This document shows, in pieces, positions 9,393 to 20,256 of a stretch of DNA of 22,295 bases. Source of the stretch: a virus; the IMG/VR virus record IMGVR_UViG_3300021364_002684, positions 1-22,295 of that record; one strand, 5' to 3'. The notes below the pieces were generated by a model that saw only the letters and a list, made by a program, of their open reading frames with translations, made no database searches and was not told the DNA's origin. The translations under genes were made by a program, and so were the position numbers. How positions within the stretch are numbered: the stretch's first letter is position 1; each line of letters begins with the position of its first letter.

Positions 9393-9617
9393 ATGGCTTT
9401 AACAAAACAAACCCATGTGGACAAGATAGAAATTATAGAGACTGTAACTGAAGACGGTACTCCTATCACTTTTGTTCAAATAAGACAAAAAATACAAATA
9501 GTAGAAGGCTCTGAAGTTATCTCAGAGTCCTCTACTAGATATATTTATAGTGCTGGAGACGACTATAGCTCTGAGAGCACAAAAGTGCAAAATATTTGCA
9601 ATGCTGCATTTTCTTAA
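9393..9617 (+). CDS. Small hypothetical protein, marine phage type
   Basis: 74 residues with a good ribosome binding site (GGAG at 9384-9387) before ATG 9393. It starts MALTKQTHVDKIEI and ends VQNICNAAFS, with alternating beta-like strands between (TFVQIRQKIQIVEG). Short proteins with a similar MALTK..H.DKIE opening and IC(N) ending often accompany fibre genes in marine phages, as I recall, but no function is known to me. There is no signal peptide, membrane segment or catalytic motif. It is the last gene before the promoter gap at 9618-9723, so it probably closes the tail-tip transcription unit or is read through from it. Confidence 0.65.
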   Translation: MALTKQTHVDKIEIIETVTEDGTPITFVQIRQKIQIVEGSEVISESSTRYIYSAGDDYSSESTKVQNICNAAFS

Positions 9618-9618
9618 C

Positions 9619-9641
9619 TATTTTTACCCCTGTGAAAAATA
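9619..9641 (+). other. AT-rich inverted repeat after the tail-tip gene block
   Basis: Arms TATTTTT (9619-9625) and AAAAATA (9635-9641) are exactly complementary, and AC/GT can pair inside with one bulged G. It lies two bases past the stop of the 74-residue gene. The stem has almost no GC and no T-run follows, so it is not a convincing intrinsic terminator. It may simply mark the operon end. Confidence 0.3.
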
Positions 9642-9645
9642 ACTC

Positions 9646-9674
9646 TTGACATTTTATGTCGGTATTGGTATAAT
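9646..9674 (+). promoter_or_regulatory. Consensus sigma-70 promoter with extended -10
   Basis: TTGACA at 9646-9651, a spacer of exactly 17 bases, and TATAAT at 9669-9674; the bases before the -10 are TGG, giving an extended -10 (TGnTATAAT). All twelve core positions match the bacterial housekeeping consensus. Transcription would start near 9681, giving a leader of about 43 bases before ATG 9724. It lies in the only gene-free gap of the window and points at the fibre/adhesin block. The expectation that it is strong and host-polymerase-driven comes from general knowledge of sigma-70 promoters. Confidence 0.85.
9648..9660 (+). promoter_or_regulatory. Inverted repeat over the -35 box, possible operator
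   Basis: GACAT, TTT, ATGTC forms a perfect inverted repeat with five-base arms and a three-base centre. The left arm contains the last four bases of the TTGACA box, so a dimeric protein bound here would block RNA polymerase. No matching second copy was noticed. Short palindromes also arise by chance in AT-rich DNA, so the regulatory role is only a suggestion. Confidence 0.3.
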
Positions 9675-9697
9675 CATTCTAATTAAATATTAAAAGC

Positions 9698-9709
9698 CTC
9701 CTTAAGGAG
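9698..9709 (+). promoter_or_regulatory. Palindromic ribosome binding site of the BppU-like gene
   Basis: CTCCTTAAGGAG is a perfect 12-base palindrome. Its right half is a strong Shine-Dalgarno sequence (AAGGAG), 14 bases before ATG 9724, which is rather far. In the RNA the CTCC half can pair with GGAG around a TTAA loop, giving a small hairpin that could partly hide the ribosome site. A four-pair stem is weak, so the effect may be slight. Confidence 0.4.
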
Positions 9710-9723
9710 TACGTTGAAATCTA

Positions 9724-10056
9724 ATGGATATAATTCAAGTAGTAAAAGGCGATACCGGCCCGCAACTTAGAGCAACTGTAACTCGTTCAGATACGGGAAC
9801 AGCTTTTGTGGGCTCATCAGATACAAATCTACGTATTCGCAAGAAGGGCACTTCTACTATAATTTCAACTATTCCTTTAGATACTGTGGAATCATCTCTT
9901 TCTGCGGGTAGTCTAGTATTTCCATTAAGCAGTTTTTTAACAAACTCTGCAACAACAGATGGCTTTTATGAAGCAGAAATAGAATTCACTTTATCCGATG
10001 GTCAAATTATGAGCGTATTCGAGTTAATTGACATTAAGGTTAGAGATGACTTTTAA
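9724..10056 (+). CDS. Small BppU N-terminal-like virion protein
   Basis: 110 residues. It begins IIQVVKGDTGPQLRATV and continues with TNLRIRKKGT, LDTVESS, GSLVFPL, DGFYEAEIEF and DIKVRDDF. The succession GDTGP, a 'val/leu-arg' strand, then 'G.Y.AE...T..DG' and a closing 'VRDD' is the pattern of the N-terminal domain of baseplate upper protein (BppU-like) that anchors receptor-binding proteins in lactococcal and many other phages. In those proteins it is usually followed by further domains; here it stands alone. It is the first gene behind the 9646 promoter. An adaptor role for the following fibre proteins is inference. Confidence 0.6.
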   Translation: MDIIQVVKGDTGPQLRATVTRSDTGTAFVGSSDTNLRIRKKGTSTIISTIPLDTVESSLSAGSLVFPLSSFLTNSATTDGFYEAEIEFTLSDGQIMSVFELIDIKVRDDF

Positions 10057-10058
10057 TT

Positions 10059-10244
10059 ATGAAAAAAAGTTTTATTTATACAGTAAAGCCCAACTTAGGA
10101 AGGTTTCCTGAGCTAAAATCGGCCAAAGCAACCACTCCTCATGCAAAATTTGTAACACTGGATACTCCAAGTTCTATAAATATACTTAGGAATGTTCCTT
10201 TATTAAAAAGCTCGGAGGTAGTACACCCAAGTGTGAGGATTTAA
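10059..10244 (+). CDS. Small basic hypothetical protein
   Basis: 61 residues between two genes without room for anything else; starts MKKSFIYTVKPNLGRFP and is rich in Lys, Pro and Ser. The ribosome site is poor, so it may be translated by coupling to the stop two bases upstream. No motif recognised. The frame follows the local pattern (start directly after one stop, stop directly before the next start), which supports a real gene. Function unknown; perhaps a partner of the 684-residue protein. Confidence 0.5.
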   Translation: MKKSFIYTVKPNLGRFPELKSAKATTPHAKFVTLDTPSSINILRNVPLLKSSEVVHPSVRI

Positions 10245-10245
10245 A

Positions 10246-12300
10246 ATGTCACTAGATAGCAAGATTTCAATTTTACTATCTCAGTTGAAAAATAATCCCG
10301 AGCTACTAAATAAAAATACAACTGCAGCCAGGCTAAACGAAGTTTCAGTCCCCAATGAGCCTTTATTTGCAGGAATAACAGGAAACATGCCCACTATGCT
10401 TGGGGCAGCTTCCTTGATAAATGATCCCAACTTGTTCAACGTAGAGTTGGATCTATTTATCCTACTAAAAGAACAGCTTGTAAGTCGTTTAAAACTAATT
10501 GATGTTCTTTCAATCTCTCAAGACAAGGTTTTTAAAGACATACTGGCAGGTAGAGAAGATGTTTTAAGAACTGTAACAAAACCTCTACAAAGCATAGTAG
10601 AAATAGATCAATTTATAAAGTTTTTAAGAAGATTCAATTTAGCAGATTCTTTCACTATAAGCGACTCAGAAACTTTAAAAGCTACTAAAAGTCTGGTAAC
10701 TTCATTAGAGGCTCTGGACGCTTTAAGTAAGAAAACTGCAATTAAAAAATCAGAATTGTTAGATTTATTAGATGAAATAATTGTAAAGAGAACTGCGCGA
10801 GTAAGACCCCGGGACAAAATTGGTCTTACGAATATAATAAAAGTCCCAAAAGCAAAACTTGCAGTAGATAGACTAATTATACAAGATTTTACTCCTGCAT
10901 TCAAGACTAGTACAGAAAAAGAAGACACAGCAGCTTTAAATGCAATATTTAAAGATATAAAGCCTACAAAAGTTTTAGAAGAAGATATAGCAACAAGAAG
11001 TTTTACTCTAAATCCTAAAGCAATTTTTCGTACTAATAGAATTAGTGCAAAGTCTAAAGCTCAACTGAAAGCTTCTTTCGATGTATTAGAACAAATACAA
11101 TTATTCAAAAGAGTAACAAGGGATGTTAGTATTCTAAGACGTTCTACTTTCTCTGCGAGAACAAATGAATTAGTTTCAAGATTTTTATTTACTGTAGATA
11201 GAGCAGGTACAAAGTCCAAGCATAAGTTAAAAACTACTACAGAAAAGAAAGACTTAGTAACTGCATCTATTGATAGATTTTTTAAAGTAAATACAAATTT
11301 ACTAGAAAGATATAATATTAGAGACGGAATAATTAAACCCGCAAGATTTAAACAAACTGTAGACAATTTTGCATCCTTTAGTAGAGTTTCAAAAAAGTTT
11401 GATAGGTCATTAGAAGACGTATCGGATTTAATTATAAAAATATCTTTAAATCCAAATTTAGCAGAAAGAGATAAAGTACAGATTTTAAATTCTATACTTA
11501 CACCAAAAGCAAAATTTAGTACAGAAAAAGTACAGACTAGTGAGTTTATTAAACTTAAGTTTCCTTTTAGACTTTTCGAAGTATTTGATATAATAGATGT
11601 AAAAATAGTTAAGTTTTTAAATAAGCAGATAATATTTCCAGAAATTGCAGAAACCTCCGATACTTCAATACAAGCAAAAAGTTTAATTTTTAGTTCCCAA
11701 ACTGGGTTGAGCACAAAAGACAGAGACTACGGAGGGATCGGAGATATATTTTTTACTTTTGGGAGAAAGATAATAGAGCTAGTAACTATTGTTGACAGAG
11801 TAAAAAAAGAGTTTAGACGGCCTCGAAAAGACTCGTTAAAAATAGCAGATTTAATTCTAGAAGGGCGAGCTAATTTAATTTCATCAAGAATTTTTGCAGA
11901 TGATAATAGACTTGGGACTTTAGTAGGAAAAGCTCTTATTCCTTTTACGGTTGGTATTCAAGATATTAAGTATGCAAACTCGTTAGAAAAAATTAGATCT
12001 GAAAAACTAAACACACTAAGTTTTATAGTAACACCTGCACTTGCAGAACAAATAACAGAAAGATTTTCGGTAGATGATAGTTTCAATCCTTATTTACTTA
12101 ATAAAGTAAAAGAGTTTAGAATTGGACTAAAAGACACAACACTGAAAAAACTTCAAGAAAAAACTGACGGTATTAGAGACACACTCTCTTCTTCAGAAAA
12201 AGGCTACGCTTGGATGAGGGATGAAGAGTACACGAGAGGAGCATATTTTTTACAGCCATATGTTGCTACAATACCCCCTGGCAGATCACGCCAATTTTAA
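10246..12300 (+). CDS. Large lysine-rich repetitive protein of unknown function
   Basis: 684 residues with an unusual make-up: rich in Lys, Ile, Leu, Ser, Thr and Asp, poor in Gly and Pro, with no Cys or Trp through most of its length. A degenerate short repeat is visible: a hydrophobic/Asp strand followed by Lys or Arg, for example RFNLADSFTISDSETLK (~133), KLAVDRLIIQD (~207), RFLFTVDRAG and RLFEVFDIIDVKIVK. This recalls the 'DSFTLSD' repeats of long marine-phage structural proteins. The C-terminus departs from the repeats (GYAWMRDEEYTRGAYFLQPYV, split here as GYAWMRDEEY and YFLQPYV), similar to the aromatic 'YF..DYV' endings of such proteins. Probably a virion rod or fibre, given its place among fibre genes. 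Arg is mostly AGA, unlike the next gene. No enzyme motif seen. Confidence 0.6.
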   Translation: MSLDSKISILLSQLKNNPELLNKNTTAARLNEVSVPNEPLFAGITGNMPTMLGAASLINDPNLFNVELDLFILLKEQLVSRLKLIDVLSISQDKVFKDILAGREDVLRTVTKPLQSIVEIDQFIKFLRRFNLADSFTISDSETLKATKSLVTSLEALDALSKKTAIKKSELLDLLDEIIVKRTARVRPRDKIGLTNIIKVPKAKLAVDRLIIQDFTPAFKTSTEKEDTAALNAIFKDIKPTKVLEEDIATRSFTLNPKAIFRTNRISAKSKAQLKASFDVLEQIQLFKRVTRDVSILRRSTFSARTNELVSRFLFTVDRAGTKSKHKLKTTTEKKDLVTASIDRFFKVNTNLLERYNIRDGIIKPARFKQTVDNFASFSRVSKKFDRSLEDVSDLIIKISLNPNLAERDKVQILNSILTPKAKFSTEKVQTSEFIKLKFPFRLFEVFDIIDVKIVKFLNKQIIFPEIAETSDTSIQAKSLIFSSQTGLSTKDRDYGGIGDIFFTFGRKIIELVTIVDRVKKEFRRPRKDSLKIADLILEGRANLISSRIFADDNRLGTLVGKALIPFTVGIQDIKYANSLEKIRSEKLNTLSFIVTPALAEQITERFSVDDSFNPYLLNKVKEFRIGLKDTTLKKLQEKTDGIRDTLSSSEKGYAWMRDEEYTRGAYFLQPYVATIPPGRSRQF

Positions 12301-12312
12301 AGGAGAACCTAA

Positions 12313-14280
12313 ATGTATATAGACGATTGTCGCTTAAAAGGTGTTGTAAACCTAGTCCTTCGTGATAAAGATGGAAAGGTAAAGCAACATAAAACAATTC
12401 GTAACAAAGTTACGAAAGATGGTATCGCTCACATTATCGGTCGTATGATTGACGATGGACAAGATCGTGCAGGCAAGCATAAAATGCCCCGAATGATGAG
12501 CCATATGGCGATCGGAATTGGGGCAGCAGCTCGTTCTGATAAAGATCGATATACTCATACGGACTTTGATAACCTTCCAAAAGTGTTAGGTATTAGTGAC
12601 AGTGGCGGTACTCAAGCTAATCTAAAAGTTGCTAGAAAACAGGCAGCTATTCCAAAAGCATATGACCGTATGCTTCAAGACGAGCGCGGCTTCCGTGTTC
12701 AACTTATGAAAGACACTACTCTTGCAAGTGATTATGTGCCACTTATAAATGTGCACCTTGAGCAAGATGGCTCAACCGCAATGCATACTACGGATAGTGC
12801 GGGAAATAGTCAATTAATTTTTGTTACAGGTAGTGGCGGTGGCGCGACTTTAAAGCGACTAAGAAAGGGACTTCAAATAACTGGCCTTACAGGAGGTACT
12901 TCAAACACTGGCCCTGTTGGTGGCAGTGCGGATAATGTTAAAAATGCTCAAACTATAAAAATTGCTAAGATTGAAACAGGAGTTCCTAATTCAACTTCTT
13001 CGAGACTTACTCTTGATGGAACACTTAGTTCGCCCCCGGGAAACTCTGTAACCGATGTTCATATTGATGTAGAATATGTTGATGCAATTGCTTTAACAAG
13101 TTATAATATTAATCCTGCGCATCCAACCCATACCGCCGTGCGCTCAGTGTTTGAAGCTCCAACAGGGGCAACTCATGGCACAGGGCCCTTTGCTGCAGCA
13201 TCAGCTAGAAGCGGTACTATAGGCGGCCCAAATGCTGACTATCTTGAAGATGGTAAAGGGATGTTGGGTATTACTCGTGGACAAATTGGCGCTTTCTATG
13301 AGCGAGAGTTAGAATATAATATTCAGCTTACTCATACTGAGCAAGACGGGCTGCCTATTGATCTTACTCAAAGTCCGGGCGGAAATCCGAGTGTCCTCAC
13401 TACTGTTGATGAGGCCGGTTTTGCAGTTCTTGATTCCGGTGTAGCCAGGTTTCCCTTTGTGGGCGCTGAAGAAGATAAGCCGTCCGGAACTGCAACTGTA
13501 GGTGCCTCGACAACTGCAGGTACTAACACTGCGACTACTCGTGGTACAGAATTTATTCAGTTTGGTACAGCAGTTGATGGCATCTTCCAAGGAGCACTTG
13601 TAGGCTCAAGTATTGTTGCAAATAGCGCAGACGGTACTGCGGAAGGTTATCCGCCCGAAGAAAATAACTACGGGGTTGCAGGAGGTCTAAATATTGCAGG
13701 AACAGGTGTAGATGCTTTGGCTAGTACATTTAGTGCATTTCTTAACTATGATTTTGGAGGAGGCACGTATTCTCCAAATGCTGTAGCGGGAGCAAAGAAA
13801 AATGGAGATCGTATTGTATACGTTGCTACATTTAAAGAAAATAACCCTCGCCCAGAGCAAGACTATGATAGATTCAGCGGTACTGTAGGTACTCATAGAG
13901 CTCCTTTAAATCGTATTTACCCAATTACAGAGGCGGGTATCTTTAATAAGCATATTCCAGATATTGGAGTTTTTGACGTTGGTGATCGTTCATATACAAC
14001 CACAGACGGCTCTAATTCAGAACTAGCTCATATTGATGCAAGAGCAAATACAGCAACAGGATCTACTATTGACTATACTCTCACTAGTGGTACAGACCAT
14101 AATCCTGTTGAAGGTGTTTTGACTCAAGACGGTAAATCAATTACTGCGGCAGCTTTTGGCTTTACTAAAGGCCCCTTGACTCAGACAATGCTCTGTCGTA
14201 CAACTTTCGATCCGGTCAATAAAGCAACCGCAGATACTCTGCAAATTACTTGGTCAGTTCAACTTCAAGATTTGACATAA
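12313..14280 (+). CDS. Putative virion structural / fibre protein
   Basis: 655 residues behind a strong AGGAG (12301-12305). The N-terminus (MYIDDCRLKGVVNLVLRDKDG, then RNKVTKDGIAHII and SHMAIGIGA) and the C-terminus (PITEAGIFN at ~537, then MLCRTTFDPVNK and LQITWSVQ near the end) frame a family of phage structural proteins in which 'EAG(I/L)FN' and 'M..RTTF..(I/V)NK...L.ITW' are conserved. The middle (~165-520) is a large Gly/Thr/Ala-rich insertion. No catalytic site seen. Codon use stands out: arginine is mainly CGT/CGC/CGA, while neighbours use AGA almost throughout, which fits either high expression or separate origin. Likely an abundant tail or decoration protein. Confidence 0.6.
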   Translation: MYIDDCRLKGVVNLVLRDKDGKVKQHKTIRNKVTKDGIAHIIGRMIDDGQDRAGKHKMPRMMSHMAIGIGAAARSDKDRYTHTDFDNLPKVLGISDSGGTQANLKVARKQAAIPKAYDRMLQDERGFRVQLMKDTTLASDYVPLINVHLEQDGSTAMHTTDSAGNSQLIFVTGSGGGATLKRLRKGLQITGLTGGTSNTGPVGGSADNVKNAQTIKIAKIETGVPNSTSSRLTLDGTLSSPPGNSVTDVHIDVEYVDAIALTSYNINPAHPTHTAVRSVFEAPTGATHGTGPFAAASARSGTIGGPNADYLEDGKGMLGITRGQIGAFYERELEYNIQLTHTEQDGLPIDLTQSPGGNPSVLTTVDEAGFAVLDSGVARFPFVGAEEDKPSGTATVGASTTAGTNTATTRGTEFIQFGTAVDGIFQGALVGSSIVANSADGTAEGYPPEENNYGVAGGLNIAGTGVDALASTFSAFLNYDFGGGTYSPNAVAGAKKNGDRIVYVATFKENNPRPEQDYDRFSGTVGTHRAPLNRIYPITEAGIFNKHIPDIGVFDVGDRSYTTTDGSNSELAHIDARANTATGSTIDYTLTSGTDHNPVEGVLTQDGKSITAAAFGFTKGPLTQTMLCRTTFDPVNKATADTLQITWSVQLQDLT

Positions 14281-14296
14281 GTAAAGAAGACGTTTA

Positions 14297-16174
14297 ATGT
14301 CGCATCCTAGAACTTCCTCAAGCCTACCTGCTAATGGGGTAGGCAGCCCTGTAACAGTCGATGGCATTACATATGTCTGGAATACTGTTACAGGTCGTTG
14401 GGAAACACAAATTAGTAAGAATATTAATATTGTTACTAAAGACACGGATGCCGACTATGTAATACCTCTTTCTTCTTTTAGTAGCCCTCTTGCATCTAAA
14501 GAGGGCCAATCTGTTGCACATAAACCAAATGAAGAACTGTTAACAGTAATTGAAGTAGATACTAACTTTATACAATTAAAGCAAGGTATCGCAAGTTTAG
14601 AAAGAGAGCTTACTTACTGGACTCATGAAATAGAGGAAGAAGCAGGCAGAATCAACTCTTTGAATAGTATTTTATTTGATTCTAATAATCAAGTAGATTT
14701 TGTTTCAAAAACAACTGGAGGCACTTTTGGAGGTATTGTTTCTGCAGGAACTCCAACATCGACAAATCAGAATAATTCAGATCTAGTTACTACTCAGTAT
14801 CTACAAAGAGAATTTGGAACTTTAAACAGAAGTTTAATACCTAACCAAGTAGCTACTAATCTTGACTTGGGTAGCTCTTCCAATGGTTGGAGAGATATTT
14901 ATGTTCAGCAAAGTATCCTACCCGATTCATCAGCTACTATACATGCTACGGAGCTAAAAGACGATCCCAATAATCCAAATCAACAAGTAACAGTACGCTA
15001 TAGAGATGTAGACATTGGCTCTTTTACAAACCGCTTTAGAGATTTATATGCTCATAGTGGTAACTTCTTTGGCGGCACAGTAAATATTGGAGATGCGTCA
15101 CTTTCCGAAACTACTTCGGGCGGGTTACTAATACCAAATAATAGTTCTATTGGTACAGAAGCGAATGAAATTCCTTCTTCTTTTGCAAACACTCTTATAG
15201 ATGAAAGATTTGCAGTAACTGGCCAAATATCTGAGAGACTTGTTGGAACATTTACAACATCAGGAAATGTTTCTGCAAATAATCCTGTAAAAATATTATC
15301 AACAGGAAAAGTGGTAGCAGTAACTAGTACTACAGCAAGCGATGCCTTTGTAGGTATAGCACTAGAGACAAAAAATAGTAATCAACAAATAAAAGTAGCT
15401 GTTCATGGAGTTGTTGGAGGGTTCTCTGGGCTAACATCAGGAACCACTGTTCATATAGAACAAAATGGCACAATTACTCAAACCAAAACAACTACTACTC
15501 AAAAGATAGGTGTAGCAGTATCTACAACAGAGATATTTTTATTCTCTATTTCTAACTTAGATACTTATGTAATCGGCAGGTCAAAAATAGGTCTGGAAGA
15601 TTTATCTGCTTCGGTTGTATCTCCTGGTAGTGGAAGCGGTAATTTTTCCTATAATAATACTACAGGCACTTTTACTTTTACTCCACCCGATTTAAGTCCT
15701 TATGCTACTTTACAATATGTAAATCAAGAAATAACAGGATTAATTGATGCAGCCCCGGGGGCACTCGATACACTAAATGAGTTAGCCGCAGCAATAGGCG
15801 ATGACGCAAATTTTTCAACAACTGTAACAAACAATTTAGCTACAAAAGCCCCTTTAGCAAGCCCTACTTTTACAGGTATTCCTACAGCTCCTACAGCTAG
15901 TTCTACAACTAATAATACACAGCTTGCGACTACGGCTTTTGTACAAAATTTGGCAGGCGCTCAAGAAATCGGGGACTTATCTGATGTAGATATTAATAGT
16001 GTACAGGATGGGCAAGTTTTAGCATATAGTATTTCTGCTCAAAAATTTATAAATCAAAATCAATCAGGTGTAGGCTCAGGCACAGGGGGCGCAGTTAATT
16101 TTATTGTGGATGGCGGATCAGCTACAACAGTATCTAACGACATAATAATTTTTCTTGACGGAGGTAGCGCATAA
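14297..16174 (+). CDS. Tail fibre protein with short coiled coil and TLNELAAA module
   Basis: 625 residues. Modules in order: an N-terminal VDGITYVWNTVTGRWE segment (~21-36), as in several marine phage fibre N-termini; a probable coiled coil at ~88-130 (IQLKQGIASLERELTYW); RSLIPN followed by LGSSSNGWRDIYV (~180-205), a shaft repeat echoed by SFTNRFRDLYA; a beta-rich domain of ~140 residues (SGNVSANNPVKIL onward); GPGALDTLNELAAA-type trimeric segment (~484-500, here AAPGALDTLNELAAA) with KAPLASPTFTG and NTQLATTAFVQ; a LSDVDINSVQDGQVL linker; and a C-terminus ending FLDGGSA. The ribosome site is weak (AAGAAG region 14284-14290). It ends immediately before the next ATG. The modules indicate a trimeric fibre; the receptor is unknown. 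Confidence 0.8.
   Translation: MSHPRTSSSLPANGVGSPVTVDGITYVWNTVTGRWETQISKNINIVTKDTDADYVIPLSSFSSPLASKEGQSVAHKPNEELLTVIEVDTNFIQLKQGIASLERELTYWTHEIEEEAGRINSLNSILFDSNNQVDFVSKTTGGTFGGIVSAGTPTSTNQNNSDLVTTQYLQREFGTLNRSLIPNQVATNLDLGSSSNGWRDIYVQQSILPDSSATIHATELKDDPNNPNQQVTVRYRDVDIGSFTNRFRDLYAHSGNFFGGTVNIGDASLSETTSGGLLIPNNSSIGTEANEIPSSFANTLIDERFAVTGQISERLVGTFTTSGNVSANNPVKILSTGKVVAVTSTTASDAFVGIALETKNSNQQIKVAVHGVVGGFSGLTSGTTVHIEQNGTITQTKTTTTQKIGVAVSTTEIFLFSISNLDTYVIGRSKIGLEDLSASVVSPGSGSGNFSYNNTTGTFTFTPPDLSPYATLQYVNQEITGLIDAAPGALDTLNELAAAIGDDANFSTTVTNNLATKAPLASPTFTGIPTAPTASSTTNNTQLATTAFVQNLAGAQEIGDLSDVDINSVQDGQVLAYSISAQKFINQNQSGVGSGTGGAVNFIVDGGSATTVSNDIIIFLDGGSA
15748..15960 (+). repeat. TLNELAAA / TTAFVQ module, copy 1
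   Basis: This segment encodes the module PGALDTLNELAAA, then FSTTVTNNLATKAPL and ending ATTAFVQ. Related copies lie at 17677-17890 in the next fibre and at 20803-21020 and 21455-21666 in the last one. Shorter copies of only the PLASP to TTAFV half occur at 17050-17155 and 18395-18492. The protein sequence is strongly kept while codons differ. Such segments are common in the shafts of trimeric phage fibres. Confidence 0.8.
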
Positions 16175-18967
16175 ATGGCAGCACGAATACAGCTAAGAAG
16201 AGATACTTCTAGTAACTGGAGCTCTACCAATCCAACTCTTAATTCAGGAGAATTAGGAGTAGAAACTAATACTAGTAAGATAAAACTGGGAGACGGCAGC
16301 ACTGCATGGAACTCTTTAGATTATGTTGTATACCCTCTTTCATTCTCTGACTTACTTAATAAGCCCACTACTATATCCGGGTATGGTATTACAGATGCTT
16401 TTGATGGTGCTTTCAGCTCTTTATCAGGTACGCCTACTACCTTAGCAGGCTATGGAATTACTGATGCTCTATCAGCGAGCGCAGCACTGGAAGATCTTTC
16501 AAATGTTTCTATTTCCAGCTTACTTAATAATCAATTTATAAAGTACACCGGAACAAACTTTGTAAATCATACTTTAACTTTTTCTGATATTACTTCTACC
16601 CCTACAACTGTGGCAGGGTATGGTATTACAGATGCGCTAACAACTGTATCTTTTTCTCAACTTACAGGCAAGCCTACTACCATATCTGGCTATGGCATTA
16701 CCGATGCTTTTGACGGTGCTTTTACTTCCTTAACGGGTAGACCAACAACTATATCTGGATATGGTATTACGGATGCTTTTGACGGAGCTTTTAGTTCTTT
16801 AACGGGTAGACCAACTACTATAGCGGGCTACGGTATTACTGACGCATTTAATGGCTCATTCACAGCTCTTACAAATACACCTACTACCATATCTGGCTAT
16901 GGCATTACCGATGCTTTTGACGGTGCTTTCAGCTCTTTAACCGGAGTTCCTACTACAATTGGTGGTTTTGGAATTACTGATGCTTTTGATGGAGCTTTTG
17001 GCTCCCTTACAGGCAGGCCCACTACCTTAGCAGGTTACGGCATAACAGACGCAGCACCTTTAGCGAGTCCGGGACTTACAGGAACTCCTACAGCTCCTAC
17101 TGCTACATTAAATACTAATAATACTCAGATAGCAACTACTGCATTTGTAAATACAACTGTAGAAGATTCTATTGATACAAATAATACTGTATATTTTCAA
17201 GATAATGCACCAACTTTTTCAGTTTTTGATGAGATCTGGATAGATACAAATGCAGGAGGCCTATACAAGTCTGTAGCATCTACATCGACAGTGCCTCTTG
17301 ATAGTAGCATGGTTTCTACTAGCTCGGCTAGTATTACAATTCCTGCAGCAGGAGCATCTGATACGAGACTAGAATTAGATACAGGACTCCCTAGTGGGTC
17401 TGTTTCTTTTATAGCTCCAATATTTATAGAGTCTTTTTCCAGCACTGGAGTCAATGACCCTACACTTGGTATTGTAACTTATGCTGATGATACTCAGGCA
17501 ACAATAGACTCTAATTCTATTAGTAGGGCTACAGGTAATGCGCTTGATACAAAAATTAAAAGCTTTACTTTTACTTCAGAAGGTACTACGAACAGTTCTA
17601 ATTCTCATATAACTTTAACTGTATCAGGGCATCCGGTTTGGACACTACAAGACTCTGATATACAATCAAAAGTAGACGCTGTAATTGACTCTGCTCCAGG
17701 AGCTTTAGATACTTTAAATGAGCTAGCAGCAGCACTAGGGGACGACCCTAACTTTTCTACAACAGTTACAAACAGTTTAGCAACAAAAGCACCTTTAGCT
17801 AGCCCTACTCTATCAGGGACCCCTACAGCACCTACAGCAGCAAGCTCTAGTAATAGCACTCAAATAGCTACAACTGCTTTTGTGCAAACAGCGGTAGCAG
17901 GGACGGTAAATCTTACAGACTTTAGTGTTACTTCTAATAGTGCTTCCGGAGGAGGCGCCCTTAGTTATAATAATTCTAGTGGCGTATTTAGCTATACACC
18001 TCCTGATTTAAGTAGTTTTTTAACTTCGGTATCTTTCAGTTCTTTAACAGGTAAACCTACAACTGTATCAGGATACGGTATTACAGATGCTCTAACTACC
18101 GGGGCAGACGCAGATATTGGTAGTAATGATTTTATTACGACAGGTAAGGCATATTTTTCAAACGTATTTTCTCAAACGTCTAACCTGCCGAATGCAAGCA
18201 CATACCATGGTATGTTTGCCCATGTTCATGCAACAGGAGCAGCTTATTTTGCTCACGCAGGAAACTGGGTTAGGTTAGCAAATCAATCAGAAGTATTCAG
18301 CGGAGTATTTGCTGATCTTACAAGTAAGCCTACTACGCTAGCAGGTTATGGTATAACTGATGGAGCAACAACTAATGCTCTTAATTTTAAGGCCGATTTA
18401 GCAAGTCCCGGGTTTACAGGCACTCCTACGGCCCCAACAGCACCTTCTAGCACTAATACCACTCAAATAGCTACAACTGCTTTTGTTCAATCCGCGGTAT
18501 CCGGCGCTACTAGTTCGGGTGCAAATGTTTCAGTATCAAGTTCTGCACCAAGTAGTCCTTCTGCGGGAGACTTATGGTTTGATGATGATGCTTTAGTACT
18601 TTATGTTTATTACGCCGATGGCGACTCTAATCAGTGGGTGCAAACTAATCCTTCTTCGGGTGGCGTATCGGTAACAGAAGAAAAATACAAAGAAAAGACC
18701 AGTAACTATGTGGCTGTAGCGGGAGAGAAGTTAATAGTAGATACTTCTACTGCTGTAACAATAACACTCCCAGCTAGTGCAGTAATCGGGGATGAAATAA
18801 GAATTATTGATGGAACAGGAAATGCCGCAACTAATAATATAACTGTAGCAAGAAATGGACATAAAATTGAAGGTGCTACATCCAACCTAACAATTGATTT
18901 AAATAGAGCAGCTTTTGGCTTAGTATATTATAATACTACCCAAGGTTGGCTACTCACGGAGCGATAA
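16175..18967 (+). CDS. Long tail fibre with Mtd-N-like head and G-I-T-D-A repeat shaft
   Basis: 930 residues, GGAGG at 16160-16164. The head (RIQLRRDTSSNW...ELGVETNTSKIKLGDGSTAWN, split by a short linker) matches the N-terminal domain of major tropism determinant-like proteins, used to attach fibres. Then come nine 'GYGITDA' units (~70-293), six of them at exact 69-bp spacing; PLASP/NTQIATTAFV segments; a TLNELAAALGDD module (~512); two further GITDA/GITDG units flanking an HGMFAHVHATG domain (~678-700); PSAGDLWFDDD (~796) with a SNQWV strand; and a C-terminal domain (~830-930) with VDTSTAVTITLPA, NNITVARNGHKIEG and a GWLL end, common at phage fibre tips. Likely a trimeric side or tip fibre. 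It overlaps the next gene by TAATG. Confidence 0.85.
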   Translation: MAARIQLRRDTSSNWSSTNPTLNSGELGVETNTSKIKLGDGSTAWNSLDYVVYPLSFSDLLNKPTTISGYGITDAFDGAFSSLSGTPTTLAGYGITDALSASAALEDLSNVSISSLLNNQFIKYTGTNFVNHTLTFSDITSTPTTVAGYGITDALTTVSFSQLTGKPTTISGYGITDAFDGAFTSLTGRPTTISGYGITDAFDGAFSSLTGRPTTIAGYGITDAFNGSFTALTNTPTTISGYGITDAFDGAFSSLTGVPTTIGGFGITDAFDGAFGSLTGRPTTLAGYGITDAAPLASPGLTGTPTAPTATLNTNNTQIATTAFVNTTVEDSIDTNNTVYFQDNAPTFSVFDEIWIDTNAGGLYKSVASTSTVPLDSSMVSTSSASITIPAAGASDTRLELDTGLPSGSVSFIAPIFIESFSSTGVNDPTLGIVTYADDTQATIDSNSISRATGNALDTKIKSFTFTSEGTTNSSNSHITLTVSGHPVWTLQDSDIQSKVDAVIDSAPGALDTLNELAAALGDDPNFSTTVTNSLATKAPLASPTLSGTPTAPTAASSSNSTQIATTAFVQTAVAGTVNLTDFSVTSNSASGGGALSYNNSSGVFSYTPPDLSSFLTSVSFSSLTGKPTTVSGYGITDALTTGADADIGSNDFITTGKAYFSNVFSQTSNLPNASTYHGMFAHVHATGAAYFAHAGNWVRLANQSEVFSGVFADLTSKPTTLAGYGITDGATTNALNFKADLASPGFTGTPTAPTAPSSTNTTQIATTAFVQSAVSGATSSGANVSVSSSAPSSPSAGDLWFDDDALVLYVYYADGDSNQWVQTNPSSGGVSVTEEKYKEKTSNYVAVAGEKLIVDTSTAVTITLPASAVIGDEIRIIDGTGNAATNNITVARNGHKIEGATSNLTIDLNRAAFGLVYYNTTQGWLLTER
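16385..17050 (+). repeat. Array of 69-bp (23-residue) GITDA units in the 930-residue fibre
   Basis: The GITDA codons start at 16385 and 16454 (69 apart), at 16622, and then in a regular run at 16694, 16763, 16832, 16901, 16970 and 17039, each exactly 69 bp after the last. The consensus unit is TTISGYGITDAFDGAFSSL with a short TG(R/K)P link. Segments 16673-16722 and 16880-16929 are identical over 50 bp, 207 bp (three units) apart. The other copies differ at many synonymous sites. Confidence 0.9.
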
Positions 18968-20256
18968 TGACAAATTATTCAACTATACGAGGTAGTACTG
19001 GGGGAGGCGGTGCTGGAGTTACTGCTTATGCTAATTATGCGTCTCTTCCTACGTCGGGAAACTCTGAAGGAGATTTAGGCTTTACTCAAGATACCGATGC
19101 TTTATATGTATGGGATGGAGCAGCGTGGGATAGAATAGATAATGGAGACGAGTCTCCGGTAATAATTACAGAGCCTCCGACAACTCATGATCTTGATGCT
19201 GGAGGCTCTACAACTTCAATATCTATGTCTGCCCAAGACCCTGAAGGCTTTGATATTACTTATGGTATTGCTTATAAAACAGCAAATAATACACGTCCTG
19301 TACAGCTTGGCGGAGACACTACAATTAATCAATCTACTGGCACCTACACTTTTACACCAAGTACAAACACAGCGAATTCGGGTACATTTAAAGCTCGATT
19401 AAGCGCTTCTGACGGTGCAAATGTTACTACACGCTTTGTAGATGTTGAGTTAGATTTTACTATGGATATGGAATACTTAGTAGTCGCTGGAGGCGGTGGA
19501 GGCGGTGGAAATCGCGGAGGGGGTGGCGGTGCCGGTGGCCTACTGTATGCTCCTAGTTTCAGTACAGACAGAGGAAGAACCTATACAATTACTGTAGGTA
19601 CTGGAGGAAACAAAGGAGATGGTTGGTTTACTTGGGGTTCTAATGGTGGAAACAGTGAAATTTCTGCAACAGGAAATGCGGGCTGGACAACTGTAACAGC
19701 TATAGGTGGAGGCACCGGAGGCCAAGGAGCCGGCAGCGGCGCTGCAGGAGGCTCTGGAGGCGGCGCAAGTAAAGTAACCACTAGTACGGCAAGTACTTAT
19801 TACGGAGGAGCAGGAACACCAGGTCAAGGGTACGATGGTGGAGATGAAGTAGGAGTAGGGGGTGCTGGCGGTGGTGGAGCTGGCGCTGCAGGAGGAACAA
19901 GCCCTTCTGGTGCTGGAGGTATTGGAGTTCAAAATTCAATTACAGGTACTGCTGTTTACTATGCTGGTGGTGGTGGCGGGGGAGAACAAAATTCAAGCTC
20001 CTCTGGAGGTGTTGGAGGTACCGGTGGCGGGGGTGCTGGTGGTGACGGTAACGGAACAGATGGAACAGATGGCCTTGGCGGAGGCGGTGGAGGCGGTGGT
20101 GACGGTAACGGAAATGCCGGCGGAGATGGAGGAAATGGCGTAGTTATTATTCGTACAACTGCAACTGCACTTTCAACAACAGGGTCGCCAACAGTAACTC
20201 AAGATGGCAACTATAATATTTATAAGTTTACAGCTAGCGGAACTATAGCTTTTTAA
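18967..20256 (+). CDS. Glycine-rich adhesin-like tail protein
   Basis: 429 residues. The start is ATG 18967 (TAATG overlap, GGAG at 18958-18961, five bases away); an upstream in-frame TTG at 18946 lacks these supports. Residues ~20-63 form a small domain (ALYVWDGAAWDRI), ~64-165 an Ig/cadherin-like domain (SPVIITEPP, QDPEGFDITYGIAYK, TGTYTFTPS, DVELDF). From ~166 comes MEYLVVAGGGGGGG and a long Gly-rich region to ~393 with TYTITVGTGG and NGVVIIRTT strands, closing YNIYKFTASGTIAF. This is the glycine-rich domain widespread in phage adhesins; poly-Gly runs may pack as polyglycine-II helices, as in the gp38-type adhesin of phage S16. A role as a distal adhesin for the fibre encoded just upstream is inference. 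Confidence 0.78.
   Translation: MTNYSTIRGSTGGGGAGVTAYANYASLPTSGNSEGDLGFTQDTDALYVWDGAAWDRIDNGDESPVIITEPPTTHDLDAGGSTTSISMSAQDPEGFDITYGIAYKTANNTRPVQLGGDTTINQSTGTYTFTPSTNTANSGTFKARLSASDGANVTTRFVDVELDFTMDMEYLVVAGGGGGGGNRGGGGGAGGLLYAPSFSTDRGRTYTITVGTGGNKGDGWFTWGSNGGNSEISATGNAGWTTVTAIGGGTGGQGAGSGAAGGSGGGASKVTTSTASTYYGGAGTPGQGYDGGDEVGVGGAGGGGAGAAGGTSPSGAGGIGVQNSITGTAVYYAGGGGGGEQNSSSSGGVGGTGGGGAGGDGNGTDGTDGLGGGGGGGGDGNGNAGGDGGNGVVIIRTTATALSTTGSPTVTQDGNYNIYKFTASGTIAF

Follow-up and report, generated by a model that had tools for sequence, protein, structure and literature searches.

Promoter site and chance expectation

The question raised by this locus is why a promoter of perfect bacterial consensus should stand inside the tail gene block of a phage, and at what stage of infection it would be used. 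The window, i.e. the whole stretch of 22,295 nucleotides that was analysed (positions 1 to 22,295 of the IMG/VR record IMGVR_UViG_3300021364_002684), contains at 9646-9674 the hexamers TTGACA and TATAAT, separated by a 17-nt spacer that carries a TG extension, and the site is thus exactly as claimed in the original prediction. It is the sole 12/12 promoter match in the window, the runners-up reaching 10/12, and it has every element of a sigma70-type promoter with an extended -10 box (TTGACA, a spacer of 16-18 nt, TGn and TATAAT). The site occupies a gap of 106 bp (9618-9723), the flanking open reading frames (ORFs) ending at 9617 and starting at 9724. The features of the locus are the following:

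9393..9617, + strand: upstream 74-aa ORF, PHROG 6228 (unknown function), at a position that is variable among relatives
9635..9639, + strand: AAAAA tract, UP-element-like, 5' of the -35 box, invariant in 14 representative sequences
9646..9651, + strand: -35 hexamer TTGACA, unchanged in the window and all 18 relatives
9652..9668, + strand: 17-nt spacer with TG at 9666-9667, TG invariant, mean pairwise identity of the spacer 69%
9669..9674, + strand: -10 hexamer TATAAT, unchanged in the window and all 18 relatives
9675..9677, + strand: start of the discriminator, CAT, late-type, invariant in 14 representatives
9681..9723, + strand: predicted 5' leader, with a putative start about 7 nt past the -10 box; leader conserved in relatives
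9698..9709, + strand: short hairpin CTCC-TTAA-GGAG, arms almost invariant, loop variable (4-5 nt)
9724..10056, + strand: gene X, 110 aa, first gene 3' of the promoter, beta-sandwich (AlphaFold model, pLDDT 88)
10059..10244, + strand: 61-aa ORF, no PHROG or Pfam match
10246..12300, + strand: 684-aa ORF of the fibre region, no significant family match and no cultured-phage match by tblastn of the 684-aa protein
12313-14280, 14297-16174, 16175-18967 and 18946-20256, + strand: further fibre-like open reading frames

In dinucleotide-preserving shuffles, searched on both strands with spacers of 16-18 nt, 0.02 perfect matches are expected per window, and the exact form with a 17-nt spacer and TG was found in none of 1,500 shuffles. 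Sites scoring at least 9/12 were not in excess (60 in the window, against a shuffle mean of 56.6). Judged from its sequence and conservation, 9646-9674 is very likely a working promoter for the housekeeping (sigma70-type) RNA polymerase of the host.

Conservation in relatives

Relatives were gathered by means of gene X, which gave 16 in IMG/VR and two more at 56-58% identity, 18 in total. The perfect site is kept in 18/18 of these relatives, all with at least 56% identity of the downstream gene, and stands 76-79 bp before the ATG. Close relatives with the same gene order that lack the boxes, which had been named as grounds for giving up the original prediction, were therefore not found. Among 14 representatives, the AAAAA tract, both hexamers, the TG and the CAT that follows TATAAT are all invariant; identity is 100% in the hexamers and TG but 69% in the spacer, and the fourfold-degenerate sites of gene X are 47% identical (14 usable sites). 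In the relatives at 56-58% protein identity the spacer is altered and both boxes are retained. This pattern, with invariant hexamers and TG around a spacer at 69%, is that of promoter elements under selection. Within the spacer, A (9656) and GT (9658-9659) are likewise invariant in the 14 representatives, perhaps as contacts of a factor. The gene position directly upstream is filled by five unrelated families across the relatives.

Distant homologues of gene X (32-42% identity) belong to other phages, and the TTGACA/TATAAT pair is absent from them. In these other phages, the motif TGn[TG]A[ATG]AAT was seen 20-27 bp before the gene X homologue in 5/5 distinct loci (L051-L057), with about 0.01-0.02 expected per locus; the pattern was picked post hoc and overlaps stop codons, so that it is a lead only.

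The leader RNA was also considered. GGAG of the short hairpin is likely the Shine-Dalgarno element and precedes the ATG by 14 nt. The arms suggest a hairpin on the basis of their letters; no covariation was found across relatives, and the folding energy of the leader in the window is not unusual (z -0.36). A riboregulator in the leader was dropped as a candidate, given the ordinary folding stability and the lack of covariation.

Genes around the promoter

The model of gene X matches BFVD entries that include phage proteins named BppU (N-terminal domain), and its weak PDB matches include tail-tip chains of T5/DT57C. The likeness to baseplate proteins with a BppU N-terminal domain is one of fold only, and no sequence-family match was found in PHROG or Pfam; gene X may hence be taken, from its predicted structure, as a BppU-N-like baseplate protein. 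A homologue was found in none of about 85,000 bacterial and archaeal genomes, so that there is no lead to a prophage. No DNA match to a cultured phage was obtained for the fibre region. The ORF at 18946-20256 has a Pfam glycine-rich domain (PF21722). The fibre-like ORFs at 12313..20256 likely lie within the block transcribed from the promoter, with its presumed extent reaching that far. There are no tRNA genes in the window.

The tail-tip proteins of the window are lambda-like (L, K, I and J). Tail-tip modules are exchanged upstream of the promoter, being lambda-like L-K-I-J in G009, G007 and the window and T5-like Dit-pb3 in G014 and G015, while the fibre block behind the promoter is the same in both sets.

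Kinship with phage T5

The window is a 22-kb fragment that holds tail genes only and no early genes; the T5 core genes were found in its relatives, with AY543070 as the reference sequence of T5. In the longer relatives TerL is 47-49% identical to that of T5, and D5 is 50% identical. These relatives carry T5-like DNA polymerase, the two-part NAD ligase (ligA/ligB), D5, D2, D3 and D10-D15, as well as T5-like portal, protease and capsid (MCP) genes and pb6. Some of them (G014, G015) have T5-like pb3 and Dit, and others have a lambda-like set, as the window does. The replication, packaging and head genes of the T5 core, which would be asked of a member of the Demerecviridae, are thus present in the relatives; T5 pb1 (ltf), pb4 and pb5 gave no tblastn match at 1e-4, and for this reason the label Demerecviridae is not claimed, but only T5-like kinship. 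By these gene comparisons, the phage, an uncultured marine virus, is T5-like and distant kin of coliphage T5. In the long relatives, whose contigs are classed as linear and possibly incomplete, no sigma factor, no integrase and no T7-type polymerase were found; the search for the last recovers T7's own.

Promoters of the relatives

The long relatives G009 (94.6 kb) and G015 (72.5 kb) each contain 23 sites of 11-12/12, against 2.1-2.5 in shuffles, and 10 perfect promoters each, against 0.05-0.1. A similar A-tract lies 5' of most of the strong promoters in these genomes. On the late strand, promoters recur at about -33 kb (methyltransferase), at -24 to -26 kb (directly past terL), at -15 to -18 kb (past the major tail protein) and at 0 kb, the last being the equivalent of 9646-9674. 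Judged by the T5 homologues in the relatives, the site of the window belongs to the strand that carries the late virion genes in a T5-like genome.

The promoters of the relatives fall into two classes by the letters that follow TATAAT. AT follows in 30/31 promoters of the early region and in 1/38 of the late region, the regions being assigned from the gene content of the relatives (Fisher p ~3e-17, for counts that are not independent, orthologous sites being repeated). When each distinct sequence is taken once, the figures are 21/22 early and 1/17 late. The site at 9646-9674 reads TATAAT|CAT, which is of the late class and differs from the early AT type.

Another perfect promoter is likewise conserved directly past terL: TTGACAATTTATCT...GGCTATAATGCAA (L019:7947-7975, i.e. 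G009:27947-27975), with equivalents in G002, G010, G014, G015 and G016. Its -10 box overlaps a putative start codon of the HNH-like gene, and the transcript might therefore be leaderless. Clusters of strong promoters in regions of uncertain coding were also seen at L018:13700-13850 (G009) and L025:10040-10423 (G015); most of their discriminators are rich in GC (TATAAT|TGGCGCGCC, TATACT|ACCAGG) and fit neither main class, and the regions possibly encode a stable RNA or contain an origin.

Comparison with T5 promoters

In T5, all three temporal classes of genes are transcribed by the sigma70 holoenzyme of the host, and early as well as late genes are preceded by strong sigma70 promoters (PMC7472727). 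PJ5 and PG25, both late promoters, are situated among the tail genes and are active late (PMC7472727). On the T5 map, PG25 is located between the tape measure gene and the Dit-pb3-pb4-fibre genes, and PJ5 lies in T5.146, ahead of the gene for the major tail protein. The original prediction regarded a housekeeping promoter among virion genes as anomalous, but it has precedents in T5. The site at 9646-9674 resembles PG25 and PJ5 in being a strong sigma70-type promoter with an upstream A-tract, inside a late tail block and serving virion genes. PG25 reads TTGATA/TATAAT and PJ5 TTGACA/TATACT, whereas 9646-9674 is a perfect 12/12 with TG; unlike both, it sits past the tail-tip cassette, before the BppU-N-like gene and fibre genes without T5 homologues.

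With the T5 early promoters (such as PN25, PH207 and P15a) it shares the -10 box, the upstream A-tract and the host polymerase. These early promoters mostly have a -35 box of the TTGCTT/TTGCTA kind and an AT-type discriminator, in contrast to TTGACA and CAT at 9646-9674. T5 early promoters have been described as having an ATATT discriminator in common (PMC7472727), and the annotated ones were found here to be mostly of the AT type. The late promoter PG25, however, reads TATAAT|ATT, so that the discriminator rule is only a tendency in T5. It is stated that early/late switching in T5-like phages with one host sigma factor is unresolved (PMC7472727). Literature searches turned up no further mapping of T5 late promoters, nor any paper about the promoters of marine T5-like phages.

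Proposed role and alternatives

The reading that best accounts for these results, to which a probability of roughly 80% is given, is that 9646-9674 is a sigma70-type host promoter, belonging to a series of about four to five late promoters that are distributed over the late operon of this marine T5-like phage. Host polymerase, which the phage probably controls in a T5-like manner, would initiate near 9681 in the late phase of infection, and the transcript would cover gene X, the putative BppU-N-like baseplate gene, and the fibre genes behind it. The promoter would thereby boost fibre and baseplate expression regardless of the distance to the previous promoter, which lies about 15-18 kb upstream in the relatives, and would keep fibre expression steady whichever tail-tip or adhesin cassette sits upstream. 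No terminator-like site precedes the promoter in a scan of the window, so that read-through from upstream probably also occurs and the promoter would reinforce rather than isolate the block. The proposal that the downstream genes can be expressed independently is thus upheld in part: a probable host promoter able to drive the baseplate and fibre genes is present, but the block is not clearly isolated.

The original prediction had raised the possibility of early, continuous or lysogenic expression; for early or lysogenic expression no support emerged. An early or constitutive promoter, or one used in a lysogenic or carrier state, would make fibre proteins apart from the late programme, and a site of maximal consensus could indeed be read by unmodified host polymerase upon entry of the DNA. 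The AT-type discriminator of the late promoter PG25 also makes the class rule a soft one. Against this stand the late-type CAT and the position in the virion block, the lack of an integrase in the long relatives and of a gene X homologue in the bacterial genomes, and the fact that T5 keeps equally strong sigma70 promoters late; this explanation is considered improbable. Slightly less credit still is given to the view that the region is conserved chiefly as a recombination joint for the exchange of tail-tip cassettes, with the promoter likeness secondary or inherited. It would explain why one conserved block meets five unrelated upstream gene families and why the first codons of gene X are identical in DNA as well. 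A joint of this kind fits poorly with the fact that A-tract, boxes, TG and discriminator are conserved although the spacer changes, which holds down to 56-58% protein identity, and with the recurrence of other late promoters at fixed places of the late region. That the site is a functionless chance match in AT-rich intergenic DNA is hardly credible; the ordinary number of weaker matches would agree with it, but a perfect match was expected only 0.02 times and is kept in all 18 relatives.

The late-promoter reading may be extended tentatively, to an idea that is rather doubted than favoured: on host promoters that are otherwise near-perfect, discriminators of two kinds (TATAAT|AT early, other letters late) would act as a code that sets the timing, and the invariant late promoter would be a fixed border that keeps fibres expressed during upstream cassette swaps.

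On the present comparison, 9646-9674 very probably functions as a late promoter; promoters of this kind are known from T5, and this one belongs to a distant marine group. As the group keeps the same kind of difference between early and late discriminators on nearly identical promoters, it allows the discriminator idea to be tested independently by comparison. A perfect host promoter among virion genes does not have to mean early or lysogenic expression.
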